64,000 bases of DNA from Brevundimonas pondensis. Its GTDB lineage: Bacteria > Pseudomonadota > Alphaproteobacteria > Caulobacterales > Caulobacteraceae. Made by a program: the position numbers and the translations under genes. The notes under the pieces are model-generated. The model had not been told where the DNA came from, did not search any database, and saw nothing but the letters and a program-made list of their open reading frames with translations. The stretch lies in assembly GCF_017487345.1 (NCBI RefSeq), contig NZ_CP062006.1:2672001-2736000 (forward strand), in the 5' to 3' direction. Of this stretch, positions 48,490-50,787 are shown piece after piece. The number at the start of each line of letters is the position of its first letter. The stretch's first letter is position 1.

Positions 48490-49191
48490 ATGAACCTCGT
48501 CGTCCTGACCGGCGCCGGCATCTCGGCCGAGAGCGGCGTGCCGACCTTCCGCGCCTCGGACGGGCTGTGGGAGGGGCATCGCATCGAGGCGGTGGCGACC
48601 CCCGAGGGGTTCGCGGCTGACCCGGCCCTGGTGCAGGACTTCTACAACCAGCGGCGGCGGCATCTGGCCAAGGTCGCGCCCAACGCCGCGCACCGGGCCC
48701 TGGCCGATCTGGCGGCGCGGTGGCGGGGCGACTTCCTGCTGGTGACGCAGAACGTCGACGACCTGCACGACCGGGCGCACGTCGAGACCCCGCCCGCGCC
48801 GGGGTTCGAGCTGATCCACATGCACGGCGAACTGCTGAAGGCGCGCTGCACGGCGTCGGGCGCCGTCTACTACTGGACCGGCGATCTGGAGACCGCGCAC
48901 GCCTCGCCGCATCATCCGCAGGGCGTCTTGCGCCCGCACATTGTCTGGTTCGGGGAGATGCCGCTGGCGATGGAGCGGATCGAGGCGGCGCTGGAGGCCT
49001 GCGACCTCTTTGTCTCCATCGGCACCTCAGGCGCGGTCTATCCGGCGGCGGGCTTCGTCCAGCTGGCGCGCATGGCCGGGGCGCGGACGGTGGAGATCAA
49101 CCTGGAACCGACCCAGGGCGCGCGCCTGTTCGACGAAGGCGTCTACGGCCCCGCCACCGAGGCCGTGCCCGCCTTCTTCGACGCGCTTTAG
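48490..49191 (+). CDS. cobB: Sir2-family NAD-dependent protein deacylase (CobB-like)
   Basis: This 233-residue sirtuin starts [21 protein letters not shown] with AGGAG seven bases upstream. The NAD pocket, [11 protein letters not shown] and the catalytic histidine in HMHGEL are present. FYNQRRR preserves the tyrosine-arginine pair that CobB/SIRT5 use for succinyl-lysine. Only one cysteine (KARCTASG) remains where zinc-binding sirtuins have four, so the zinc ribbon is absent or replaced. Sirtuins reactivate acetylated acetyl-CoA synthetase. The frame is continuous with the upstream LysR gene. Confidence 0.9.
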
Positions 49192-49511
49192 CCGCGCGGC
49201 CCGAACAGGATCACCCCCGCCCCGATCAGACAGACCGCGCCGCCGATGACGTCCCAGCGGTCCGGCGTCGTCTTCTCGACCAGCCCCATCCACGCCAGCG
49301 AGGCGACGATATAGACCCCCCCATAGGCCGCAAACGCCCGCCCCGCCGCCTCGGTCGGAACCAGGGTCAGCAACCAGGCGAAGGCGATCAGACTGAGCAC
49401 GCCCGGCGCCAGCCACCACGGCGAGCGATCCAGCTTCAGCCAGGCCCAGAAGGCGAAGCAGCCGCCGATCTCGGCCAGCGCGGCGAGGGGGTAGATGAGG
49501 GCGAGTTTCAT
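49188..49511 (-). CDS. YnfA/UPF0060 family membrane protein
   Basis: A 107-residue protein with four transmembrane helices: [62 protein letters not shown] and [17 protein letters not shown]. This is the YnfA family, related to small multidrug-resistance exporters. It overlaps the end of cobB by four bases in convergent orientation. Its ribosome binding site (GGAG, five bases before ATG) lies at the edge of the REP-like repeat. Confidence 0.9.
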
Positions 49512-49518
49512 TTTATCT

Positions 49519-49568
49519 CCGTCATCCTCGGGGCCGCTCGCGTTTGCGAGCGGAGCCCGGGGACCCAG
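49519..49568. repeat. REP-like repeat, left copy bracketing the GIY-YIG gene
   Basis: The unit runs CCGTCATCCTCGGGG, then a small hairpin (CCGCTCGC/GCGAGCGG), then CCCGGGGACCCAG. An inverted copy with the same ends lies at 49949-49989. Confidence 0.75.
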
Positions 49569-49572
49569 ACGG

Positions 49573-49875
49573 TCAAACGAACCATGAGGCCGCCAGGTCT
49601 TCCCACTGCGGGTTGCCCGCCTCGATCAGATTGAGCTTCCACTGCCTCGGCCATTTCTTGATCTGCTTCTCCCGACGAATAGCCTCGACCATGCCAGCTT
49701 GAGGCTCGAACCACACCAGACCTTTGCAAGCATAAGCGTCCGTGAAGCCCTGAAACGTGCCAAGCTTATGCTGCCAGATGCGAGCATGAAGGTCGCTCGT
49801 GACGCCGGTGTAGAGTGTGCCGTTGCGACGGCTGGCCATGATGTAGGCGGCGATGATCGCGTCTGGATTTCGCAT
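49573..49875 (-). CDS. GIY-YIG nuclease family protein
   Basis: A 100-residue single-domain protein with [29 protein letters not shown], where YIM and YTG form the GIY-YIG pair and the arginine follows. [25 protein letters not shown] carries the conserved glutamate. This is the small COG2827/YhbQ-like group. The start at 49875 has GGGAGG eight bases upstream. The stop lies four bases from the left repeat. It is placed between trmJ and ynfA, bracketed by inverted repeat copies. Real substrates of such solo domains are not known to me. Confidence 0.88.
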
Positions 49876-49948
49876 TCGCCTACCCTCCCAAGCCGGGGCA
49901 TTCAGCACGCAGCGCCTCGACCGGACAAGGCACTAACGATCCAACCGC

Positions 49949-49989
49949 CTGGGTCCCCGGGTTCGGCTGCGCCGCCCCGAGGATAACGG
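49949..49989. repeat. REP-like repeat, right copy bracketing the GIY-YIG gene
   Basis: Read on the minus strand it runs CCGTTATCCTCGGGG, a shorter inner hairpin, then CCCGGGGACCCAG, matching the left copy in inverted orientation with one change in the first ten bases. Confidence 0.75.
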
Positions 49990-50001
49990 AAGGGAGCAGG
50001 C

Positions 50002-50787
50002 CTACTCGCCCTTCTTCGCTTCCGCCGCGCGCTTTTCGGCCAGCTTGGCCAGGACCCGGCCGCGGCCCTTGGCGAGGGCGTGGATGGCGCCGCGCATGGT
50101 GGCGACTTCCTGTTCGGTGAAGGCGGCGCGGCCCAGCATGACGCGCAGGTTCTGGCTCATCGACGGCTTCTTCTCGGGCGGGTGGAAGAAGCCCCCGGCC
50201 TCCAGCTCGGCCTCAAAGTGTTCGTACATGCCGATCAGCAGTTCGTTCGACGCGGGCGGCTCGCCCTCGCGGAAGCGCGGCGGCGGGGCGTCCAGGATCA
50301 GGGTGCGCCACTCATAGGCGTTGATGGCCACGGCCTGGGCCAGGTTCAGCGAGTGGTGCTTCGGGTCGATCGGGATGGTGGTGATGCCGGCGCACAGGGC
50401 GATGTCGGTCGTTTCCAGCCCCGCTCGCTCGCCGCCGAACAGCAGGCCGGTCTTCAGGCCAGACGCTGTATCGTCATAGAGGATGCGGGCGCTCTCGCGC
50501 GGGGTGCGCACCGGCTGGCGCGTCTCGCGCGGGCGGGCGGTGGTGGCGAAGACGGTGTTCAGGTCGTGGATCGCCTCGGCCACGCTGTCGAAGACCTTGA
50601 CGTCCTCCAGCACCCAGTCGGCGCCCGAGGCGGTGGCCCAGGCGCGGTCCTGGGGCCAGCCGTCGCGCGGGCTGACCAGCCGCAGTTCCGACAGGCCGAA
50701 GTTCGCCATGACGCGGGCGACCGCGCCGATGTTTTCGGCCATCTGGGACTTGTCGAGGATGACGACGGGGGGCGTGAGTTCAGTCAT
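50002..50787 (-). CDS. trmJ: tRNA 2'-O-methyltransferase TrmJ
   Basis: A 261-residue SPOUT-class methyltransferase. The N-terminal domain shows PPVVILDKSQMAENIGAVARVMANFGLSELRLVSPRDGWP and the knot region GLLFGGERAGLE followed by IPIDPKHHSLNLAQAVAINAYEW, all typical of TrmJ, which methylates position 32 of several tRNAs. The C-terminal 80 residues form the helical extension that TrmJ has and TrmL lacks. Frame intact. Confidence 0.9.
   Translation of the reverse strand: MTELTPPVVILDKSQMAENIGAVARVMANFGLSELRLVSPRDGWPQDRAWATASGADWVLEDVKVFDSVAEAIHDLNTVFATTARPRETRQPVRTPRESARILYDDTASGLKTGLLFGGERAGLETTDIALCAGITTIPIDPKHHSLNLAQAVAINAYEWRTLILDAPPPRFREGEPPASNELLIGMYEHFEAELEAGGFFHPPEKKPSMSQNLRVMLGRAAFTEQEVATMRGAIHALAKGRGRVLAKLAEKRAAEAKKGE

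Follow-up and report, generated by a model that had tools for sequence, protein, structure and literature searches.

A solo GIY-YIG nuclease gene between inverted CGTC-like REP repeats: a putative mobile unit in Brevundimonas pondensis and other bacteria

The closest described counterparts of the element reported here are repetitive extragenic palindromes (REPs), of which the GTAG kind is accompanied by REP-associated tyrosine transposases (RAYTs), unlike the CGTC kind, which apparently has no dedicated transposase (Di Nocera et al. 2013, PMC3733652). As that survey describes them, CGTC REPs have a CGTC tag, A/T at the base of an 8-9 bp stem, a loop of 4-5 nt (with named exceptions) and a CCA tail, and they form dimers; they are found mainly in Alphaproteobacteria, in all orders, and also in Neisseria, where the dRS3 repeat was named CGTC-1 (PMC3733652). 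In the survey, CGTC repeats flanked no tyrosine transposase gene (PMC3733652). Here we describe a solo GIY-YIG nuclease gene of Brevundimonas pondensis that lies between two inverted REP-like repeats, in a stretch of 64,000 nucleotides (positions 2672001-2736000 of the 3.55 Mb single-contig genome, hereafter the window). Gene and repeats are probably one mobile module of about 400-560 bp, a REP-nuclease unit, with the nuclease as the dedicated enzyme of its REP family. The best reading of the data is a system of REPs and gene-less REP pairs (REPINs) that has a GIY-YIG nuclease instead of a RAYT.

This reading is supported by the anatomy of the unit, whose core features are as follows.

49573..49875, minus strand: solo GIY-YIG nuclease gene, 100 amino acids from ATG (PF01541, 40.5 bits)
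49519..49568, plus strand: left REP, 3' of the gene, with its tag CCGTC A facing outward, stem TCCTCGGG / CCCGGGGA, tail CCCAG
49949..49989, minus strand: right REP, the inverted partner 5' of the gene, with its CCGTT tag facing outward and its CCCAG tail inward
49519-49533 (plus strand) and 49975-49989 (minus strand): REP tags, the right one reading CCGTTATCC
49556-49568 and 49949-49961: REP tails, CCCGGGGACCCAG

The initial annotation had placed a 100-residue solo GIY-YIG domain gene here, 4 and 73 nt from inverted repeat units with shared ends. The profile match and reading frame bear out the gene, tags and tails lie on both sides where the repeats had been put, and the two distances are as claimed. 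An in-frame GTG at 49908 is an alternative start that would give 111 amino acids. The two REPs share the same stem, predicted to fold as 8 bp in each, and they enclose 23 nt on the left, including an inner hairpin, and 14 nt on the right. As single-stranded DNA the left REP folds strongly (z -4.95); the right one folds no better than shuffled sequence (z -0.62). At up to two mismatches the tag pattern has 4 matches in the 64 kb, against 0.65 expected from shuffles, and its exact matches are the two REP tags only; taken by itself, the tail pattern does not stand out from chance in the window (4 matches against 7 expected, again at up to two mismatches). Rfam gave no match at the gathering score in 49400-50100.

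With CGTC REPs these repeats share the CGTC tag (left) or its variant CGTT (right), A/T at the stem base, the 8 bp stem and the CCCAG tails. They differ in their interiors, 23 and 14 nt rather than the 4-5 nt loops described (PMC3733652), and in having a GIY-YIG gene in the place of a transposase. Because the interiors are longer than these loops, the window REPs appear to be CGTC-like rather than certain members of the class; many relatives do have 5 nt loops.

Many homologous genes elsewhere are bracketed in the same way, and the bracketing is specific to them. The gene is present in 69 of 119 Caulobacteraceae genomes, with up to 6 matches each, several of them interrupted, and missing from the other 50. 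Counting a locus as bracketed when strong inverted repeats (score at least 18) stood on both sides, we found 51 of 89 evaluable Caulobacteraceae loci bracketed (90 read), compared with 0/271 random windows, 3/281 non-adjacent open reading frames (ORFs) and 6/102 ORFs next to the unit; when the flanks took in 60 nt of the match, a variant with no control of its own, the count rose to 59/89. Among named genomes, where the 80 loci read were the best of at least 591 and 3 had too little flank, 56/77 evaluable loci were bracketed against 0/424 control windows. Pooled, 115 of 166 evaluable loci (170 read, mostly proteobacterial, including 3 identical pairs and further same-locus relatives) were bracketed, against 5/413 non-adjacent ORFs of the same loci, and the repeats are thus far from equally frequent beside random genes. 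A locus of G097, given as the same genus (L035), is identical in sequence to one of Brevundimonas bullata HAMBI_262 (L124); L and G numbers are our handles for loci and genomes. In the pooled set, the ORFs adjacent to the unit have REPs in common with it, and 15 of 208 were bracketed.

A REP-pattern match lay within 350 nt in 37 of the 55 unbracketed or non-evaluable loci (a count with no matched control). A REP pattern matched 120 times within nominally 63 kb next to the gene, against 95 times in 665 kb elsewhere. The outermost tag pointed outward rather than inward by 52:10 upstream and 55:13 downstream (62 and 68 of the 170 loci with a pattern match). Outside the Proteobacteria, all in metagenome bins, brackets were found at 4/4 evaluable Nitrospirota loci (L146, L155, L173, L184), at one Planctomycetota locus (L192) and at one Bipolaricaulota locus (L163, whose repeat is not REP-like in look). 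A Bdellovibrionales bin (L178) was also bracketed. Loci in Elusimicrobia (L185), Armatimonadetes (L157) and two other planctomycetes (L164, L166) were unbracketed, as was a Rhizobium plasmid locus (L236, score 8.5).

REP numbers across genomes follow the gene. Three REP types, chosen as flanks of GIY-YIG genes, were counted in the 119 Caulobacteraceae genomes with these flanks included, and since the counts are pattern searches of a few stem types they are lower bounds: at least 1 REP was found in 59/69 genomes with the gene against 16/50 without, at least 5 in 45/69 against 7/50, and at least 10 in 34/69 against 3/50. The REP total is associated with gene presence in a within-genus permutation (p 1e-4). 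A Y1 transposase (PF01797) has no match in the B. pondensis genome and matches in 20 of the 119 Caulobacteraceae genomes, where its presence predicts neither any REP (16/20 against 59/99, p 0.13), nor at least 5 (9/20 against 43/99, p 1), nor at least 10 (7/20 against 30/99, p 0.79).

Within the B. pondensis genome itself, the REP type of the window gene has 3 exact-pattern matches, two of which are its own flanks, and one doublet at 452644/452745 resembles it. A second solo GIY-YIG gene is present in the same genome.

G000:C1:153173-156394, gene at 154628-154918: L001, second solo GIY-YIG gene, with in-frame stop(s)

It lies between lpd-like and acyltransferase-like genes and is bracketed by a REP type other than that of the window. 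This type has 18 matches in the genome: 2 flank the L001 gene, 14 form 7 inverted doublets spaced 80-109 nt apart, and the remaining 2 stand alone as closed palindromes, tagged at each end. Another CGTC-like REP type has 13 matches. Closed, doubly tagged palindromes were seen at L258 and L010 in this genome and at L238 and L239 on Sphingobium plasmids, and they may be what a deletion leaves of a REP pair or an entire unit. In a genome lacking the GIY-YIG gene, eight REP-like units follow one another as direct tandem repeats, one every 61 nt (G034:C25:5923-6370).

Protein and REP type are inherited jointly. Of the 115 brackets, 106 could be typed, with GTCA as the tag in 77 and CTCA in 12, CCCA as the tail in 47 and TCCA in 34, and with stems that vary. 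Since the typing scored GTCA tags and CCA tails more highly than others, these counts are not independent evidence of conservation; the conservation of tag and tail is visible by eye in alignments. After 19 rows that aligned over more than 700 nt with another row had been dropped, 96 loci were left, among which protein identity correlated with REP similarity (Mantel rho 0.33, a value that none of 2000 shuffles reached); the closest protein had the same REP 58% of the time, compared with 9% after shuffling.

Whole units recur at unrelated loci. Homology over units of about 400-560 bp joins loci whose surroundings cannot be aligned, as in L146/L184, L193/L201 and L036/L125; in two further pairs both loci belong to a single genome, L091/L109 and, truncated by a contig end, L065/L080. 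For L146/L184 and L036/L125 the homology begins and ends at, or a few bases from, the outer REP tags. In the Azospirillum lipoferum plasmid AZO_p3 (L237), a REP-GIY-REP unit sits inside the suf cluster, between sufB and sufC.

The presence of the unit is also polymorphic at the site that it occupies in the window. This is the junction between trmJ and ynfA, as the initial annotation had it; the neighbours and the remaining part of the unit are as follows.

49188..49511, minus strand: ynfA (PF02694), flanking gene
50002..50787, minus strand: trmJ-like RNA methyltransferase (PF00588, SpoU-type methylase), flanking gene
49876..49948, minus strand: stretch resembling a REPIN spacer (GCGTGCTGAATG...), by eye against L204, L205, L207 and L208

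The name TrmJ is our own label, and that of the initial annotation, presumed rather than taken from a profile match. The gene-proximal REP of L207 and L208 (B. bullata) is not recognisable by eye at 49876..49948 of the window. In alleles with no insert, the GTG start of ynfA overlaps the trmJ stop. A GGAG lies across the outer end of the left REP (49509-49523), 5 nt before the ynfA ATG, and may be the ynfA ribosome-binding site in alleles in which the two genes no longer overlap.

trmJ was found in 98 of 101 genomes of the genus. Among the best 30 matches, whose junctions with ynfA were read and classed by eye, 12 had the GTGA gene overlap, 7 carried the gene, 9 had REPs only and 2 were otherwise; the gene is thus not fixed at this locus. 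Genome G195, with 98% TrmJ identity, has a gene-less REPIN in place of the unit of the window. Well-supported branches of the trmJ tree force at least 4 changes of gene presence. On this tree L206, with no insert, is sister to the gene-bearing L208, which is compatible with loss, transfer or an ancestral state. Different Brevundimonas species hold different REP types at the junction (L204-L233; for example L204, L209, L212, L220 and L233), and it looks as if it were preferred for insertion, or tolerated insertion well.

A second polymorphic site was seen on sister plasmids of Sphingobium, where 11 records span 80% or more of the region and 8 were aligned, three of four identical ones being omitted. 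Four of the eight have the unit, one of them frameshifted, two have neither unit nor REP, and two have, at the same site, just one closed REP that is tagged at both ends, imperfect in one of them. The closed REP could be the remnant expected from recombination between two REP stems, or it could be the state before insertion.

The nuclease is under purifying selection. Its dN/dS (ratio of nonsynonymous to synonymous substitution rates) is 0.15 against B. bullata L124, and among 16 chosen gene pairs, three of which include a copy with a stop and some of which join unrelated loci, it is 0.04-0.25 in 14, 0 in one and undefined in one. The enzyme is kept functional though its presence is unstable, as would be expected of an element that depends on its product. 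Y21, Y32, G34, R42, H46, E79 and N98 (numbered by translation from 49905), which we take to be the catalytic residues of the GIY-YIG fold, do not vary across alignments of 14 and 34 sequences. An AlphaFold model (mean pLDDT 85.5) found UPF0213 as its best Foldseek match (one PDB match with E <0.001), followed weakly by UvrC domains; the best solved relative is 1zg2 (Foldseek E 4.6e-4, 27% identity; phmmer E 0.005). There are 2036 proteins that match the window protein at E 1e-10 or better. None was found among 50,697 phage records at E 1e-8, and NCBIfam gave no match above cut-off. WD-40 proteins, which phmmer returned with E values down to 4e-09, were rejected as homologues: the likeness is to the WD-40 consensus, and Foldseek ranks UPF0213 and UvrC first. 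In L091 and L109 (also L083 and L105) the GIY-YIG reading frame appears to extend through the 3' REP, which would then encode part of a C-terminal extension.

An ORF on a Neisseria gonorrhoeae chromosome filed as a plasmid, presumably Ssn, is 56% identical to the window protein over 83% of the query and lies among 16 dRS3-like palindromes in the 4.3 kb read. Ssn proteins are reportedly GIY-YIG nucleases that cut single-stranded DNA at a repeat of Neisseria meningitidis and modulate transformation, with many homologues of other specificities. If this report is right, the likeness suggests that the window gene belongs to the Ssn family and has the REP as its target. Two N. gonorrhoeae replicons of about 2.17 Mb in PLSDB (NZ_CP119140.1 and NZ_CP119142.1), chromosomes by size, are filed there as plasmids.

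We suggest that a REP would form a hairpin when single-stranded, as on the lagging-strand template, during repair or during DNA uptake, and that the nuclease would recognise this hairpin, together with the GTC tag and the CCA tail, and cut beside it. Host polymerase, ligase and recombination could then copy or paste the unit elsewhere; alternatively, the unit may be deleted between its two REP stems, leaving one closed REP. The nuclease would act on the ends of its own unit and, in trans, on REPINs. We infer both that single strands are cut at the REP and that this cutting drives the spread.

Several points weigh against a REP-nuclease unit that moves in this way. GIY-YIG enzymes are not known to rejoin DNA as HUH enzymes do, and host repair would therefore be needed. 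The limits of the unit are not always clean: homology extends 30-40 nt beyond the right REP in L091/L109 and L065/L080, there is a weak likeness over some 35 nt ahead of the left tag in L193/L201, and at trmJ-ynfA 15 and 8 nt of non-REP sequence lie outside the REPs, with no target-site duplication seen in comparison with the GTGA allele. The REP counts favour gene-bearing genomes in part by construction, because the types came from the flanks of GIY-YIG genes and those flanks were counted, and three of the 50 gene-less genomes reach at least 10 REPs. In B. pondensis the 18-match type accompanies the interrupted copy and not the intact gene, and the few matches to the window type weaken the case for the window copy as a driver in its own strain. 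Moreover, 51 of the 166 evaluable loci were not bracketed at our threshold, and part of the Mantel signal is to be expected because an adjacent gene and REP are inherited side by side.

Some of these data could also be explained by a resident single-strand nuclease of the Ssn kind, which would cut at the repeats and thereby limit or direct the uptake and recombination of DNA; the unit would be kept for this benefit and would move rarely, by homologous recombination between REPs. The gonococcal homologue among dRS3-like palindromes and the purifying selection on the gene fit such a role, as does the cutting of single-stranded DNA at such repeats, and the effect on transformation, reported for N. 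meningitidis Ssn. However, the patchy presence (from none to 6 matches in a genome, with some copies interrupted and many genomes lacking the gene) and the alike units at unrelated loci look like a mobile element, and we consider a resident nuclease of this kind possible though rather doubtful. Homology of gene and REPs together at unrelated loci, with REP type following protein type and REP numbers following the gene, makes it less likely still, and in our judgement improbable, that a separate mobile gene uses existing REPs only as landing sites and has no part in making them. Insertion sequences are said to use REPs in this manner (PMC1525189), a gene in a REPIN spacer would be indistinguishable from a REP-flanked unit, and the close relative L205 has a gene-less REPIN at the same trmJ-ynfA site.

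It would take a good deal to persuade us that Y1/HUH transposases (RAYTs) mobilise the REPs in trans, with the GIY-YIG gene as a bystander. Movement of this kind is assumed for GTAG REPs (PMC3733652), but the B. pondensis genome has no PF01797 match, the presence of a Y1 transposase does not predict REPs, and the 2013 survey found no CGTC-flanked tyrosine transposase gene (PMC3733652). That a common G+C-rich palindrome simply happens to lie beside an unrelated small gene is hardly credible: the tail motif alone is unremarkable against chance in the window, and the right repeat has no folding advantage over shuffled sequence, but the bracketing controls (0/271 and 0/424 windows, 5/413 ORFs) are almost empty.

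Returning to the REP-nuclease unit, we consider how it stands beside known systems. It shares the fold of UPF0213 or YhbQ-type solo GIY-YIG proteins, which are known as fixed genes. With the Ssn nucleases it has in common a solo GIY-YIG protein and a Neisseria relative among dRS3-like palindromes, and the role reported for Ssn is in natural transformation. Our literature searches, which covered little of the preprint and subscription literature, so that prior publication is possible, gave no paper among the matches listed that we recognised as joining GIY-YIG genes with REP repeats. As far as we could check, the link to CGTC REPs, the mobile REP-gene-REP architecture, the association in trans and the polymorphism are new. 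The 2013 survey leaves open what spreads the CGTC REPs that it found in Neisseria and in all orders of Alphaproteobacteria (PMC3733652); the GIY-YIG nuclease could be the missing enzyme of this widespread repeat family, and now that there is a candidate enzyme, for which a cognate site can be predicted in every genome, the question becomes testable.

The closest likeness is to REPIN/RAYT systems (REPtrons), and the suggestion in the initial annotation that the arrangement recalls REP/RAYT pairs, with a GIY-YIG enzyme, has worn well: the architectures are much alike, the gene matches PF01541, and PF01797 is missing from the genome. Both kinds of system have a gene flanked by inverted REPs, gene-less doublets elsewhere, a patchy presence, and an enzyme type linked to REP type. 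They differ in the enzyme, here a GIY-YIG nuclease in place of HUH or tyrosine transposase chemistry. We lean towards the view that the CGTC REPs and REPINs of Proteobacteria, and of some other phyla, are a second and independently invented REP kind, served by a solo GIY-YIG single-strand nuclease in a REP-gene-REP unit that transposes via host repair, and convergent with REPIN/RAYT. If so, two unrelated nuclease folds would have been recruited to one lifestyle, that of a hairpin repeat with its own enzyme.
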